Below are positions 4,699-18,026 of a DNA stretch of 32,272 bases, in pieces. The DNA comes from Nitrospinota bacterium (GTDB lineage Bacteria; Nitrospinota_A; UBA7883), in the NCBI GenBank assembly GCA_016207925.1, contig JACQZB010000072.1:1-32272 (forward strand), given 5' to 3'. How positions within the stretch are numbered: position 1 is the first letter of the stretch; each line of letters begins with the position of its first letter. The position numbers and the translations under genes were made by a program. The notes under the pieces were generated by a model. The model searched no databases, was not told the DNA's origin, and was given only the letters and a program-made list of their open reading frames with translations.

Positions 4699-5255
4699 AA
4701 ACCAGGCTCGCGGTTCTTGCCCTTGCCCTGCTGGCCCTGGGCGGCTGCATGTCGGGCGTGTCCCCCTACCGCTACTGGAACCAGTACGAATTGGTCAGCC
4801 CCGCCCCCGCCGCCGCCAAACGCTATACCGACGAAAACATTGACATCAATTTCTGGCTGGATGAAAAACGCATCCATTTCATGCTCAAGAACCTTTCCGG
4901 CCAACCGCTGACGCTCGACTGGAGCCGCGCCGAATACCTGCATACCGACGGAGGGCGGCATCAGGCGGCCAACATGGACTCGCTGTTTACGCCCGGCCGC
5001 GGCGCGCCCCCGCCCAAGACGCTGGCCCCGGGGCAGGAAATCCGCGACTTCGCGGCCCCCGCCCGCAACGTCGAGGAACTGGAAACCTGGACCTGGTATC
5101 TGTACCCCCTCTTTAATCTCTTTGACGACAGGGCTTACGACAACAAGGGTAAAACTTTCGGGCTGGACATTCCCGTGCAGGCGCGCGGTGAATGGAAAAC
5201 CTACCATTTCCGCTTCGTGATACAAAACGTCGCCCCCAGGCAGGAACTGCTATAA
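4695..5255 (+). CDS. Uncharacterised lipoprotein
   Basis: MKTRLAVLALALLALGGCMSG: signal peptide with lipobox (LGGC); GTG start overlapping metH stop. Confidence 0.7.
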   Translation: MKTRLAVLALALLALGGCMSGVSPYRYWNQYELVSPAPAAAKRYTDENIDINFWLDEKRIHFMLKNLSGQPLTLDWSRAEYLHTDGGRHQAANMDSLFTPGRGAPPPKTLAPGQEIRDFAAPARNVEELETWTWYLYPLFNLFDDRAYDNKGKTFGLDIPVQARGEWKTYHFRFVIQNVAPRQELL

Positions 5256-5262
5256 GCCGCGG

Positions 5263-5451
5263 TTAGACGGCGATATTCACCGACCCGCCAATCTCCTGCT
5301 CCACCACGGGATTGTTGCTTCCCTGCGGGGTGGGTTGCGGCGACTGCTGGACAGGAGGCGCTTCTTCCGGCGGCGGCTGGGCAGGCGCCCCCTCGACCGG
5401 CGCAATGGGCGGCGGCGGCGTATAAACCGAAACACCTTCAATAGTAGGCAT
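5263..5451 (-). CDS. Small proline-rich hypothetical protein
   Basis: MPTIEGVSVYTPPPPIAPVEGAPAQPPPEEAPPVQQSPQPTPQGSNNPVVEQEIGGSVNIAV; internal ATG at 5451 preferred over 5541 because upstream sequence is AT-rich and non-coding-like. Confidence 0.45.
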   Translation of the reverse strand: MPTIEGVSVYTPPPPIAPVEGAPAQPPPEEAPPVQQSPQPTPQGSNNPVVEQEIGGSVNIAV

Positions 5452-5828
5452 CACTAGCCTCAACCAATCTCTAATGTAATAATAATTCATCCTCTGGTGT
5501 AATGTCCACACACCATACCCCCAAAACCGATCTAGCCCCATTTAGCGGATGAATTATTTCGTAACTATTGAAAACAATAAGCAAACAATGAAATTGATAA
5601 TAAAAGAATACTGGTGTCGCATGAATAGCACGCTAGTTATTGAAATGCTACATGATGATTTGTTTGCAGTTAATTCGCTATCACGTTTTTAATGTTGCAA
5701 TAACAAGACACATCGTTTCGCGGGTGAAAAACCGTCACGATTTACTGTTTATTAACGCTCGTATTTTCAGGTAGATGCTATTCCATCGTCTCATGGCTCA
5801 TTTTGTGCTTTGATATAGTACGGCAATT

Positions 5829-5842
5829 TGTTTCAAGAAACA
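5829..5842. promoter_or_regulatory. Palindromic site TGTTTC-AA-GAAACA upstream of histidine kinase gene (possible operator)
   Basis: Perfect 6-bp inverted repeat with 2-nt spacer, read directly. Confidence 0.3.
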
Positions 5843-5984
5843 GTGATGGGTTACATTGAAGGACTGAAACAGGAATGCGTTGTTTATCAATAGGTTTTTG
5901 AGACGCTGATCGTGGCTATCCGTCGTGCTTGGTGAGGCGCGGGTGGGTAACGCGTTATTTTATCGGTTCGGGAGGAATGTAGGC

Positions 5985-7133
5985 ATGGCCACGAACTTGT
6001 CGCCGCAAGCGCGGGGAACAGGAGCCGGGGTGTTAAATATCAATGAGCTTGTCGAACGCGCGCCGGATATCATATTTCACTACCAGCACGCGCCAATACC
6101 GGTATTCAGTTATGTCAGCGCCGCGTCCGGCTGTGTCCTGGGTTACTCGCCCGAGGATCATTACCGCAATCCCTCGTTGTGGCTGGAGATCGTCGAAGCG
6201 CGCGACCGCGACTGGTTTTCCACATTTTGGATACAAGGCTGCTTGAAAGAACAGTGCGAGACTTTCCGGTTTGTCGCCCGCGACGGGAGGTATGTATGGC
6301 TGGAGATCGCGCTTTCGCTGGCGCATGACATCCATGGCGACGTTGTGGCGATGCAGGGGATCGCCCGCGACGTGACCGGGCGCGCGAAAATGATGGAATC
6401 GCTGATGGAGTCCGCGGCGCGGGCGGAGAAAAGCGTGGAGTTGAAGGACAAGTTCGTGGCCCTGCTCGCGCACGATCTGCGCTCGCCGATAGGCTCCACC
6501 CTGGGGCTGTTGCGCGCCCTGGAAAGCGGTTGGGGGGAAATGACCGCGGAACGCCGCGCCGAAGTGTTCAAAAACACCATAGGCGCCATGGAGCGCATGG
6601 GCAAGATGGTTGACCGGCTGCTGGATGTCAACCGGCTCAAGAACGGGCGGGTGGAGCTTGACCGGATGCCCGCCGCCATGCGCGCCCTGACCGAGGCGGG
6701 GATAGCGGCGCACCGCCATATCGCCGCACGCAAGCGCATTACGGTGGTCAACGAAATTCCGGACACAAAGTACTGGTATGTTGATTGCCAGTTGATCATG
6801 GAGGTGATAAGCAACCTTCTATGCAACGCGCTCAAATTCACGCCGGCCGGGGGCGAGGTGCGTATCCGCGGCGCCGCGCCGGATACCATCGAAGTGGTTG
6901 ATAACGGGATTGGAATGCCGCCGGAGTTGACGCCGTATCTGTTCCATTCCTCAAGCGTCGCCATCCGCCATGACACGGAAGGGGAACGGGGCCACGGCCT
7001 GGGGTTGGCGCTTTCCCGCGAGATCGTATCCGCGCACGGGGGCGAGATCGCCGTGGAGAGCAGCTTGGACAAAGGCTCCTGTTTCGCCATTGTCATCCCC
7101 GGCGCCGGGCTGGAGGACAAGGGATGCGCCTGA
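5985..7133 (+). CDS. Soluble PAS-domain sensor histidine kinase
   Basis: PAS-like N-terminus; H-box LLAHDLRSPIG; N-box NLLCNALKFTP; G-boxes VVDNGIGMP and GHGLGLALSREIV; GGAGGA RBS 8 nt before ATG 5985. Confidence 0.9.
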   Translation: MATNLSPQARGTGAGVLNINELVERAPDIIFHYQHAPIPVFSYVSAASGCVLGYSPEDHYRNPSLWLEIVEARDRDWFSTFWIQGCLKEQCETFRFVARDGRYVWLEIALSLAHDIHGDVVAMQGIARDVTGRAKMMESLMESAARAEKSVELKDKFVALLAHDLRSPIGSTLGLLRALESGWGEMTAERRAEVFKNTIGAMERMGKMVDRLLDVNRLKNGRVELDRMPAAMRALTEAGIAAHRHIAARKRITVVNEIPDTKYWYVDCQLIMEVISNLLCNALKFTPAGGEVRIRGAAPDTIEVVDNGIGMPPELTPYLFHSSSVAIRHDTEGERGHGLGLALSREIVSAHGGEIAVESSLDKGSCFAIVIPGAGLEDKGCA

Positions 7134-14006: not shown

Positions 14007-14126
14007 ACTGCCTTCCTTATTGTAAACGTTTGAACCGGAAGGCCCATTTTCGTGGATAGCCGAGGGAGTTGTCAAGGAAGTGAAAATCCTTATCAAGAAA
14101 ATTCTGAAAACACAACGTTAGTTTCA

Positions 14127-14132
14127 TATAAT
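14127..14132 (+). promoter_or_regulatory. Candidate -10 box TATAAT for the AT-rich four-gene operon
   Basis: Exact TATAAT 40 nt upstream of ATG 14172; no strong -35 recognised. Confidence 0.4.
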
Positions 14133-14171
14133 GTGGTATCCAAATTTCACGTCGCATAGTTATAGGTTTTC

Positions 14172-15092
14172 ATGGGTGATTTTCTAAAAGCGGCATACAG
14201 AGTTCTATCAGAAGCTGCCACATCGATGCATCCTCAAGATATCGTACTTGTCGCTAAAAGAGAGGGGATACTAGTTTCGAAAGGTAAAACCCCCGGACAA
14301 ACAATGAAATCTAAACTCTCAACAGATATTTTAAGAAAAAGAGATAAATCACTTTTTATTCGAACGGAAGCAGGCCATTTTGGTTTAAGAGCATGGCTCG
14401 ATACAAAACATAGCAGAGAATATCCTCATCCCGCAATTGATTCAAGTGTTAAGGAGTATCATGCTCCGCGATATAAAAAATCGCTGCTCTCCGAAGATAT
14501 ACTTGCATTTGATCGTAACTTGCTAAAGAATCACATTGATTATGCGGGTAGCATTGCACATGGCAGGAATTTGAGAAATTTATTTAACATTTGCCAACCC
14601 GTGGAACGGGCAGAAGCTGAACGAAATAAAAGTATTATTCAGTTGGTGTCATTATTTGTGGTCAGATATCGACACCACTACATCACCTATAAAAGGAGCA
14701 AGCGACTTCCAGAAAACAGGCTTCACGGAACATATTCTATCGGTTTTGGCGGCCATCTAAATCCCGGAGATATTCCCGTTCTACTCCAAATAGAAAATGA
14801 TAGTGATGCTGTAACGTACTTGCGTAGAGAATTGAGTGAAGAATTGATATTAGAGGATCCGCTAAGGTTTCAGTATATTGGGTTGCTGTATGATGACAGC
14901 AGAGATGTTAGCACTCAGCATTTAGGAATCCTGTATTTGGTCGATATTGCCAATCATAATTTTGAGATTGGCGAACGAGGGTTCCTCATTGACGCCAAGC
15001 TGGAAAATTTGCAGACAATCCAGGCAAGGCATCTTGATTTCGAGAATTGGTCACAGATTATTATTCGCTATCTAGTTGACTCGCATGACTGA
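14172..15092 (+). CDS. HARE-HTH-like domain fused to NUDIX-like hydrolase domain
   Basis: N-terminus FLKAAYRVLSEAATSMHPQDIVLVAKREGIL...TPGQTMKSKLSTDILRKRDKSLFIRTEAGHFGLRAW (HARE-HTH pattern); C-terminus YSIGFGGHLNPGD...AVTYLRRELSEELILEDP (Nudix box with REUxEE core). Confidence 0.75.
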   Translation: MGDFLKAAYRVLSEAATSMHPQDIVLVAKREGILVSKGKTPGQTMKSKLSTDILRKRDKSLFIRTEAGHFGLRAWLDTKHSREYPHPAIDSSVKEYHAPRYKKSLLSEDILAFDRNLLKNHIDYAGSIAHGRNLRNLFNICQPVERAEAERNKSIIQLVSLFVVRYRHHYITYKRSKRLPENRLHGTYSIGFGGHLNPGDIPVLLQIENDSDAVTYLRRELSEELILEDPLRFQYIGLLYDDSRDVSTQHLGILYLVDIANHNFEIGERGFLIDAKLENLQTIQARHLDFENWSQIIIRYLVDSHD

Positions 15093-15933
15093 AAAATTAT
15101 TCCACTGGCTTGCCAATTTTCTTTGGGCTAGAGCCGCAAAGTGTGTGAACTCTGTGTTAAGAGAAAACCGTTATAACACGAATATGGTGTGGTCTGAAAA
15201 ACGAATTATCATTTTCCAAATGCTTTTGCTAATTCTAATTGTCCCTGCGTTCATGTCATATTTCCGTTTTGGCGGTGAATATCAATACGTTACGACATTT
15301 GTCATGGCTAGTATCTTATGCTGGTTATGGTATGTTTCGCTGCGTAAATTCTGGAGAGTCGGCTTGGCAGTTGCGGATGTAAACATCAAGTCAGGGCTAG
15401 ATTATGGTAAATCGCTATCTTTGTGCAAGAACTCGCTATGTTTTCTTGGACTTGGCGCATCAAAACTAACGGACTTGCCAGAATTTGCTGAAGCGCTGAA
15501 GCGATGCAACAGAGATGATGAGGTTCGAATTAAATTTCTAATAGTGCGTCCCAATAATCAGCAACTCGCTACCGCCGCCCGCAAATATAAAATTAGTGAG
15601 AAGATGTATGAGGGAAAAGTTGAAGGATCAATAAAAAAATTGGCAGAACAAAAAAAGAGGCATGGAATTAACCTTCAAGTAAAGTATTATTCCAGTGAAA
15701 AATCCAAAGATTACCCTATTTTCAGAATGATGTTTATCGATGATCAGCTATGCTTGCTGAGCTATAACGTTTTTGGTGAGGGTGATGGGTCGCAGTTACC
15801 GCAATTATGCATAAATAAGGGAGCCAGCGATAGGGATACGGATTCATTTTATTACCCCATGAAGCTTTATTTTGACAAGCTTTGGAGTGATCCAAGTAGC
15901 GAAGAAATTGACTATGAAAAATGCTCTGAGTGA
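15085..15933 (+). CDS. Two-TM membrane-anchored protein with unassigned cytosolic domain (possibly PLD-superfamily-like without HKD)
   Basis: Two hydrophobic segments (IIIFQMLLLILIVPAFMSYF and YVTTFVMASILCWLWYVSL); domain SLCKNSLCFLGLGASKLTDLPEFAEALKRC...RIKFLIVRPNN...FRMMFIDDQLCLLSYNVFGEGDGSQLPQL. ATG 15085 overlaps upstream stop. Confidence 0.6.
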   Translation: MTEKLFHWLANFLWARAAKCVNSVLRENRYNTNMVWSEKRIIIFQMLLLILIVPAFMSYFRFGGEYQYVTTFVMASILCWLWYVSLRKFWRVGLAVADVNIKSGLDYGKSLSLCKNSLCFLGLGASKLTDLPEFAEALKRCNRDDEVRIKFLIVRPNNQQLATAARKYKISEKMYEGKVEGSIKKLAEQKKRHGINLQVKYYSSEKSKDYPIFRMMFIDDQLCLLSYNVFGEGDGSQLPQLCINKGASDRDTDSFYYPMKLYFDKLWSDPSSEEIDYEKCSE

Positions 15934-16510
15934 TCGACACAGCTTACACCCCAACGGTGCAGTTCATGGCCGATTTCAGCCACTACATAACGAACACACT
16001 AAATATATCATGGGGGCCCTTGAGCGGTGTCGCACACTATGGATTGGTTTAGCGCGGCATAACATAAGAGATAGTATTTCATGTGCTTCAGCTAAACACA
16101 GAGAGGAAAAGATTTCAAATCCTTTGAGCTTCATTGAAAGGTATTTGATAATTGAAGCTGTGCTGTTAAGCGAGGGCATTCACCACGATAGATTCAGAAT
16201 CGTTCCTTTCCCCATAGATGAACCAGATCTAATGATTGACTATATCCCTGTGGATACGGTCTGTTTTACAACAATAGTTGATGACTGGAATCGTCTGAAA
16301 ATTGACTCTTTACGTAAGCATGGTTTTAATGTGGAAAGTCTATGGGAAAATCTTTCTCATGTCTGTTCAGGGAAAAGAATCAGAGAATATATTTTAAAAG
16401 ATGATCTCATTTGGCAGACACTCGTGCATCCTGAGGCTGCAAAAATGATAGTTCAGTATAACCTCCGTCAACGGCTCATTGATCTCAGCAAAGATGGAAA
16501 TGTTTTGTGA
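15914..16510 (+). CDS. NMNAT/NadM-like adenylyltransferase (cytidylyltransferase-like superfamily)
   Basis: GAVHGRFQPLHNEHTKYIMGALERC (GRFQPxHxxH nucleotidyltransferase motif); RIVPFPIDEPDLMIDYIP; SGKRIREYI matches the C-terminal S-x-x-x-I-R type motif; overlaps upstream gene by 20 nt. Confidence 0.75.
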   Translation: MKNALSDRHSLHPNGAVHGRFQPLHNEHTKYIMGALERCRTLWIGLARHNIRDSISCASAKHREEKISNPLSFIERYLIIEAVLLSEGIHHDRFRIVPFPIDEPDLMIDYIPVDTVCFTTIVDDWNRLKIDSLRKHGFNVESLWENLSHVCSGKRIREYILKDDLIWQTLVHPEAAKMIVQYNLRQRLIDLSKDGNVL

Positions 16511-17291
16511 TCCCGTATTGCGCTGGGCCGGTGGCAAACGATGGCTAATTCCCATTATTTCCCCTTTGTTGCCGCGTAGATATAGCATGTATTATGAACC
16601 ATTTTTAGGCGGCGGCGCGGTGTTTTTCTCCCTGATTAGGGGTAGTGCATGTTTGTCTGATCTCAACCACGAACTAATTAATTTTTACCAGATATTAAGG
16701 TCCAAGCCGTTGCGGCTATTTAATAGTCTATATCAAAGGCACCCTTCGAAGGATGAATATTATTACATTCGATCGCGTCAAGTCCAGCATGACTATCAAA
16801 GGGCCGCAAAATTGTATTATCTCAATAGAATGAGCTTCAATGGCTTGTATCGGGTTAACAAATATGGAGAATTCAATGTCCCTTTTGGTCGGAAACCCAG
16901 CGCGAATGTCGTTGAACGGGAAGGCATGTTGCAAGCTAGTGAAAAGTTGCGGAGGGCAATTATAATACAAGCGGATTTTGAAGACGCAGTTAAAAATGCT
17001 GGGCGTGGCACTATAGTATATTTTGATCCTCCTTATACTGCGATGCACAGTAACAATGGATTTGTTAAATATAATGAAAACATTTTCAGGTGGGAGGATC
17101 AAGTTAGGCTTTCAAAGATAGCGCGCTGGCTTGCGCGGAGAGGTGTCAATGTATTTGTGAGTAACGCTGGCCATAATAGCATTAGGAAATTATATAAAGG
17201 CTTCTCATGCAAAATTGTTACGCGAAAAAGTATGATTGCGGCGTCTAGTTGTTGCCGCGACACAATAAATGAGTATTTATTTTTTACATAG
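16494..17291 (+). CDS. Dam-like DNA adenine-N6 methyltransferase (D12 class)
   Basis: PVLRWAGGKRWLIPII, YYEPFLGGGAVFFSL, DLNHELINFY, YYLNRMSFNGLYRVNKYGEFNVPFG, IVYFDPPY catalytic motif. Confidence 0.92.
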   Translation: MEMFCDPVLRWAGGKRWLIPIISPLLPRRYSMYYEPFLGGGAVFFSLIRGSACLSDLNHELINFYQILRSKPLRLFNSLYQRHPSKDEYYYIRSRQVQHDYQRAAKLYYLNRMSFNGLYRVNKYGEFNVPFGRKPSANVVEREGMLQASEKLRRAIIIQADFEDAVKNAGRGTIVYFDPPYTAMHSNNGFVKYNENIFRWEDQVRLSKIARWLARRGVNVFVSNAGHNSIRKLYKGFSCKIVTRKSMIAASSCCRDTINEYLFFT

Positions 17292-17294
17292 TAC

Positions 17295-17452: not shown

Positions 17453-17710
17453 ATGGCCGATATAAAAGCCATGGTTGACCTGATGCGGAATAACCCCGCC
17501 GGGGTTCGCTTCGCGGATTTATGCAAGGTGTGTTTGCGTTATTTCGGCCCGGCGCGGCAAAAGGGGAGCCATTGGGTATTTAAAATTCCGTGGAGTGGCG
17601 ATCCGAGGGTTAATATTCAAAATGACAGAGGCCGCGCAAAAGTCTATCAGGTAAGGCAGGTGTTAAAAGCCATCGAGCGGCTGGAGGCGGAACAAAATGA
17701 AAACCAATGA
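17453..17710 (+). CDS. hicA: HicA-like toxin
   Basis: 85 aa; KGSHWVFKIPWSGDPRVNIQNDRGRAKVYQVRQVLKAIERLE contains GSH catalytic-His pattern of the HicA family. Confidence 0.72.
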   Translation: MADIKAMVDLMRNNPAGVRFADLCKVCLRYFGPARQKGSHWVFKIPWSGDPRVNIQNDRGRAKVYQVRQVLKAIERLEAEQNENQ

Positions 17711-18026
17711 TGTTTATACGTACCGGGTATCCTGGTCGCGGGAAGACGGTGAATATGTTGGTGTGTGTCTTGAGTTTCCATCCTTAAGCTGGTTGGCCAA
17801 ATCGCCGGAAGGGGCGTTGCGGGGCATCCGTAAAGTTGCCGGTGGCGCGGTGGAGGATATGCGGAAAACTGGCGAGGCGATTCCGCAACCGTTATCCGCC
17901 AAAAAGTTCAGCGGCAAGTTCATGGTTCGTGTTCCGCCGGAAATACACCGCCAACTCACTATCCAGGCCACCGAAGCGGGGGTGAGCCTGAACCGGCTCG
18001 TCAGCGCAAAGCTTTCAAAGCGATAA
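17697..18026 (+). CDS. hicB: HicB-like antitoxin
   Basis: YVGVCLEFPSLSWLAKSPEGALRGIRKVA HicB core and C-terminal RHH-like FMVRVPPEIHRQLTIQATEAGVSLNRLVSAKL; overlaps hicA. Confidence 0.85.
   Translation: MKTNDVYTYRVSWSREDGEYVGVCLEFPSLSWLAKSPEGALRGIRKVAGGAVEDMRKTGEAIPQPLSAKKFSGKFMVRVPPEIHRQLTIQATEAGVSLNRLVSAKLSKR

Follow-up and report, generated by a model that had tools for sequence, protein, structure and literature searches.

We examined a 32,272-nucleotide stretch of DNA from Nitrospinota bacterium (GenBank assembly GCA_016207925.1, contig JACQZB010000072.1; hereafter the window) and found that it contains a rare, mobile cassette of four same-strand genes, which we call g1 to g4 and which encode a HARE-HTH/NUDIX protein, a membrane protein, a nucleotidyltransferase and a Dam-type DNA methyltransferase. 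A profile of g3 homologues (A2) was scanned against 85,462 species genomes, yielding 80 loci whose flanks were checked by tblastn for g1, g2 and g4. At only one of the 80 were all three present beside the g3 homologue: L016, from Deltaproteobacteria bacterium RIFOXYD12_FULL_50_9. Here the genes have the same order and strand as in the window (45.5, 44, 40 and 44% identity for g1 to g4, respectively), g1 and g2 overlap by 8 nt as they do in the window, and the block is again AT-rich (~36% GC within ~51%), while the genes flanking the cassette differ completely. The same order in unrelated flanks, together with foreign composition in both hosts, indicates that the island is a real, rare and mobile gene cassette. 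The L016 g1 starts 71 bp past hsdM of an hsdR-hsdS-hsdM operon, confirmed as type I restriction-modification (R-M), and this setting looks like that of a mobile cassette within a defence neighbourhood. A sequence-only reading of this DNA had proposed horizontal acquisition and a search for the four-gene order elsewhere; the recurrence beside type I R-M genes, the composition in both hosts and the absence from relatives described below all agree with that proposal. Chance neighbours or a misassembled contig could be suspected in a fragmented assembly of 170 contigs, but recovery of the same genes in the same order, with an identical g1/g2 overlap, from an independent assembly makes this explanation barely credible.

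The cassette is scarce. Searches with g2 in ~840 further genomes gave no second recurrence of the full set, and g2 profiles found one unlinked match only in this sample (G533). When g1 alone was compared with the species-genome contigs there was no match, L016 having been recovered by the g3 profile scan. Single-protein scans of viral contigs with g1, g2 and g3 were all empty, as were profile scans with g1 and g2, and the g3 profile gave six weak partial matches only; no g2 relatives were found in the phage collection.

Composition and surroundings of the island

As the sequence-only reading had it, both the open reading frame (ORF) calls and the base composition set off four AT-rich genes inside a GC-rich chromosome. 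Successive ORFs overlap by 8 (g1/g2), 20 (g2/g3) and 17 nt (g3/g4). GC content is 0.396-0.415 across the island genes and GC at third codon positions (GC3) is 0.35-0.41, compared with 0.634 and 0.893 in the flanking ilvE and 0.637 and 0.720 in the flanking dnaJ-like gene. These two neighbours are GC-rich as had been described, but on the dnaJ side ~160 bp and a HicA-like/HicB pair (17453-18026, forward strand) intervene. The pair adjoins the island, is of intermediate GC (51-55%) and has no counterpart among the L016 ORFs, and it probably lies outside the cassette (HicB, PF05534, E 1.3e-15; HicA, E 0.05, under the Pfam cut-off). The TATAAT box noted earlier 5' of the operon is present, with CTGAAA 17 nt upstream (14104-14132, forward strand), but this putative sigma-70-like promoter is weak evidence because promoter-like matches (14) barely exceed those in shuffled sequence (9.1, sd 2.9). 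A second dip in GC (~0.50) occurs at 5000-6500 of the window, next to both a PAS/histidine-kinase-like gene and sequence that is mostly non-coding.

Six genomes of the same family were available for comparison. The queC-FmdB-ilvE block occurs without the island at two loci in these genomes (L166, L167) and partly at three others (L161, L168, L170), and the dnaJ-ABC-permease-GNAT block occurs without it at one (L169); in these relatives the two blocks lie apart from one another. We found no match to g1-g4 within the conserved flanking-block regions of the six genomes, and none to g1, g2 or g3 anywhere in them. Direct repeats, an att repeat, a tRNA and an integrase were all looked for at the island ends and none was found.

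The four encoded proteins

The last gene, g4 (16494-17291, forward strand), is by sequence a certain member of the Dam/DpnM-type D12 adenine-N6 methyltransferases, scoring 233 bits against a TIGR00571 cut-off of 114.85 (E 4.6e-69) and matching PDB entries 2dpm (9.5e-65) and 2g1p (1e-44), which leaves the original Dam label secure. The catalytic motif is DPPY in the window and DPIY in L016. By analogy with EcoDam and DpnM, its specificity is probably for GATC.

The first gene, g1 (14172-15092, forward strand), encodes the sole HARE-HTH protein in the host genome. The domain spans residues 3-75 (PF05066, E 6.7e-13, 49.3 bits against a cut-off of 25.9) and is followed by a linker and a C-terminal part (~105-306) that matches Tm1382 (PDB 3e57, E 9e-11), which we take to be a NUDIX-fold protein; both earlier labels for g1 are borne out by these matches. 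GGH and RExxEE (R219, E220, E223 and E224) are retained in g1 of both cassettes and likewise in stand-alone TM1382-like relatives, in which they are family invariants. The NUDIX domain is active-looking, and hydrolysis of a nucleoside diphosphate derivative would be its predicted activity. The AlphaFold model of g1 was unusable (pLDDT 34), and we claim no fold from it. Stand-alone TM1382-like proteins are common (~30 of 385 genomes) and their genes lie in mixed, often housekeeping-like contexts that pointed to no substrate; fusion to HARE-HTH was found among the TM1382-like matches in these genomes only in the two cassettes. One such stand-alone gene, in the L016 genome, directly follows a gene with an adenosine-deaminase domain, possibly Cad1-like, and a Cas_NE0113 gene in a type III CRISPR-like locus (L101, G385:C61, 1331-5011); its NUDIX protein may clear deaminated nucleotides.

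HARE-HTH proteins of alphaproteobacterial plasmids align with g1 over its full length (hhalign 98.3%, E 1.6e-14, 275 columns), with RExxEE lost and the NUDIX domain degraded. In Agrobacterium and Leisingera a CHAT protease gene directly follows the HARE/pseudo-NUDIX gene as a conserved pair (L005, 6001-8618; L185, 3992-6600), and TIR, caspase and additional CHAT genes lie near the Agrobacterium locus. Because the architecture of g1 is common to these CHAT-linked proteins, a HARE plus NUDIX-fold protein is a recurring first gene of conflict-type modules, and g1 may be a sensor or switch.

The combination of g1 and g4 raises the alternative of an R-M-like or epigenetic module, in which Dam would mark the host, g1 would act mainly as a DNA-binding regulator, repressing or derepressing g2 as the toxin proper, and g3 and the NUDIX domain would do no more than adjust a nucleotide pool or cofactor. 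HARE-HTH and Dam share an operon here, HARE-HTH occurs elsewhere fused to restriction endonucleases (PMC10853773, PMC12839542), and the L016 cassette adjoins type I R-M genes. We nevertheless regard this alternative as rather unlikely: none of the four cassette genes encodes a nuclease, g3 has been kept and its catalytic motif is whole, and, as described below, g2 and g3 pair in other genomes without HARE or Dam.

The second gene, g2 (15085-15933, forward strand), encodes a protein with predicted N-terminal transmembrane segment(s): the window protein has one clear hydrophobic segment, the relatives from L016 and L029 (Lachnospiraceae) two. Its C-terminal domain is common to L029, L015, L008 and L100. 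DUF5919 is the best family for these relatives at sub-threshold scores (L029 at 8e-4, below the Pfam cut-off), and a Pfam scan of the window g2 itself gave no match. With an AlphaFold model of g2 (pLDDT 54), the leading Foldseek matches in the PDB belonged to the phospholipase D (PLD) superfamily: NucT, Zucchini, phospholipase D and MITD1 (prob 0.89-0.98). The HKD motif (HxKx4D) is degenerate in g2 (F213-x-M215-x4-D220), and the corresponding positions in the L016 and L029 relatives are F/L/D. Given the low-confidence model and the degenerate motif, the C-terminal domain only probably has a PLD-like fold and phospholipase activity is unlikely; a role as a membrane effector is plausible. A membrane protein with a g2-like C-terminal domain is also found amid phage-type genes on an Azospirillum plasmid (L172, 4503-5468), where it is possibly a prophage moron.

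The third gene, g3 (15914-16510, forward strand), encodes a PF01467-type nucleotidyltransferase of the NadM-like/PhpF-like family with an intact HxxH motif (GRFQPLHNEH). It had been labelled as resembling nicotinamide mononucleotide (NMN) adenylyltransferases (NMNATs) and linked to NAD metabolism. The top database matches are indeed NadM-type NMNATs, but every NMNAT cut-off is unmet (NF002243, 48.9 bits against 127; TIGR01527, 33.2 against 181), reducing the label to a remote resemblance. PF01467 also includes PhpF, a phosphonoformate cytidylyltransferase (PMC6697681), and g3 is ~30-40% identical to nucleotidyltransferases adjoining PhpG-model genes (L079, L071, L049). Homologues of g3 occur in three settings: with apgM/PhpG-like genes (several above the PhpG equivalog model), enolase-like and DHH genes at these same three loci; with phosphoenolpyruvate (PEP)-synthase-like, DHH and cysteine desulfurase genes (L029, L015); and, in Treponema, with PEP-synthase-like, cysteine desulfurase and viperin genes. 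The last are arranged in one row in Treponema saccharophilum (L002, 5989-10352; also L018; viperin at 223 bits to pVip). No NAD-pathway genes were seen beside g3 homologues in the contexts examined. In a 67-row tree the window and L016 proteins join (100/94); their branches are long and fall outside all remaining groups, including the PhpG-linked clades. We assign g3, from these comparisons, to a PhpF-like nucleotidyltransferase family and not as a proven NMNAT; NMN is not favoured as its substrate because the NMNAT cut-offs are missed and because of the operon contexts of its homologues.

Two further explanations depend on g3. In the first, g3 would be a genuine NMNAT, g1 would act as a pyrophosphatase on ADP-ribose or NAD, and the outcome would be NAD depletion or repair. 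The NadM-type matches and the fused NMNAT-NUDIX proteins known from phages are in its favour, but the score of g3 falls far below the model cut-off, its homologues keep company with PhpG-, enolase- and PEP-synthase-like genes and viperin, and the NUDIX domain of g1 is TM1382-type. The scores and homologue contexts led us to set this decidedly improbable reading, and with it the proposed link to NAD metabolism, aside. In the second, the island would play no part in defence, being mobile-element cargo or an accessory metabolic set: a remnant of small-molecule (phosphonate-like) biosynthesis plus a methyltransferase. The frequency of the g3 family in PhpG-like and other metabolic-looking operons fits this, as does the fact that the island shows no integrase, tRNA or att repeat. 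We consider it doubtful, however, as there is a single biosynthetic enzyme, the other three proteins (the membrane protein, the HARE protein and Dam) do not add up to a pathway, and defence genes are associated with both the cassette (type I R-M in L016) and the g3 family (viperin in Treponema).

Pairing of g2 and g3 and a possible conflict cassette

In L016, L029, L015 and L008 the gene immediately 5' of a g3 homologue encodes a g2-type domain. Using the L029 g2 as query, 2 of 72,556 plasmid records matched, both immediately upstream of g3, and unlinked g2-like proteins are few (G533 and the one on the Azospirillum plasmid). Since Lachnospiraceae and Rhodococcus, too, have DUF5919-type genes directly ahead of g3 homologues, g2 and g3 make up a pair that recurs across phyla, and these independent loci support the pairing. 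In L029, L015 and L008 the pairing persists without HARE or Dam. For a synthase-receptor unit, this reciprocal pairing in different phyla is the strongest argument, the signal itself being only proposed.

The Lachnospiraceae row (L029, 4388-11767), a possible sister system, encodes a DUF5919-type membrane protein, a g3-like protein, a PEP-synthase-like protein, a DHH phosphoesterase, a cysteine desulfurase and a 625-aa protein. On Rhodococcus plasmids (L008, 829-5737; L015, 3514-8328) the g2-type C-terminal domain is part of a larger protein with another N-terminus, and downstream are g3-like and PEP-synthase-like genes and then a radical SAM (L008) or DHH (L015) gene. An operon of Petralouisia muris (L071, 3720-9128; also L076) runs from SLATT through g3-like, PEP-synthase-like, membrane-protein and PhpG genes (PhpG at 641 bits, cut-off 545) to an enolase-like gene, and has the look of a SLATT-linked relative of PhpF-G-H that has not been described.

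Because of the gene overlaps, the foreign composition, the type I R-M neighbour in L016 and the recurrent g2-g3 pairing, we tentatively favour, while rating it somewhat short of probable, the reading that the four genes form one mobile conflict cassette, anti-phage or anti-plasmid, with a nucleotide-signal mechanism. The absence of the island from the family relatives, the CHAT-linked proteins that share the architecture of g1, the viperin and SLATT neighbours of g3 homologues and the intact NUDIX and nucleotidyltransferase motifs also speak for this reading. In this mechanism Dam would methylate host GATC sites and the HARE-HTH domain of g1 would read DNA, perhaps its modification state. g3 would join AMP or CMP to a small molecule that is already phosphorylated, and the product would be a signal, which the NUDIX domain of g1 would destroy or bind, holding it in check. 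Invading DNA or infection would shift this balance and free g3 from the control of g1, and g2, anchored in the membrane through its N-terminal helices, would bind the product through a catalytically dead PLD-like domain, resulting in cell damage or arrest. Which way each of these controls would act is a guess; a link between the cassette and DNA methylation status, as the sequence-only reading had suggested, is plausible.

A number of points weigh against the conflict-cassette reading. Co-function is weakly sampled because only two intact cassettes are known. Many g3 homologues lie in metabolic-looking settings with no g2, and the host genome has two further D12 methyltransferases. The membrane segments of g2 are read from hydropathy alone and its fold from a low-confidence model. 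The role of HARE-HTH as a reader of modified bases is proposed and unproven, and cytosine marks have been argued to be likelier than adenine (PMC11037411).

Relation to known systems

The statement that no named system has this gene set has held: PADLOC returned 0 families at E<=1 for g1, g2 and g3, and in the literature, most subscription papers being beyond reach, we found nothing on this gene set, on DUF5919, or on HARE-HTH with NUDIX. In kind, as a mobile conflict cassette of several genes that may be nucleotide-based, it is familiar, while neither its set of genes nor the chemistry suggested for it is known. More speculatively, and in our view unlikely, it could represent a new class of immunity in which a PhpF/NadM-type nucleotidyltransferase, not a CD-NTase, makes the signal, a small phosphate or phosphonate compound activated with an NMP, g2 senses it, and the HARE-NUDIX protein and Dam couple its turnover to DNA modification, the same pair having other partners in Lachnospiraceae and Rhodococcus. 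Should the cassette act in defence, it would bring in a gene set missing from current lists, perhaps with a signal chemistry foreign to known systems, and would open to test the idea that HARE-HTH proteins tie DNA modification to the turnover of small molecules. The g3 relatives also indicate a broader family of PhpF-like nucleotidyltransferases, apparently not yet described, whose members in several phyla are paired with viperin or with proteins of a membrane or receptor-like type (DUF5919-type, SLATT).

The proposed logic, a nucleotide-making enzyme with a small membrane protein as possible sensor, is like that of CBASS and other nucleotide-signal abortive infection systems, and the L071 homologue of g3 has a SLATT (2TM) gene upstream. 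Unlike CBASS, however, the cassette lacks a CD-NTase/SMODS cyclase, g3 being a nucleotidyltransferase of the HxxH type with no relationship to these; SLATT and SAVED models do not pick up g2, and there was no PADLOC or Pfam match for a CD-NTase or Cap effector. A nucleotidyltransferase and a NUDIX domain in one operon recall the bifunctional NadM-NUDIX NMNAT/ADP-ribose pyrophosphatases, but here they are separate polypeptides, the NUDIX family is another one and g3 is under all NMNAT cut-offs. Although g4 is a clear member of the Dam/DpnM GATC methyltransferases, its partner genes here include no nuclease. With known HARE-HTH modules the cassette shares the N-terminal HARE-HTH domain and, with the CHAT-linked proteins, the full-length architecture of g1, but the NUDIX motif they have lost is intact in g1 and the cassette has no endonuclease or protease. 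The cassette lacks the PhpG, PhpH and phosphonate genes of the phosphinothricin-type PhpF-PhpG-PhpH systems and its g3 falls outside the PhpG-linked clades, yet g3 is homologous to the nucleotidyltransferases beside PhpG-model genes. Similarly, and unlike prokaryotic viperin (pVip) operons, it has no radical SAM enzyme, but a 40%-identical homologue of g3 is found in the four-gene row of T. saccharophilum that ends in viperin.

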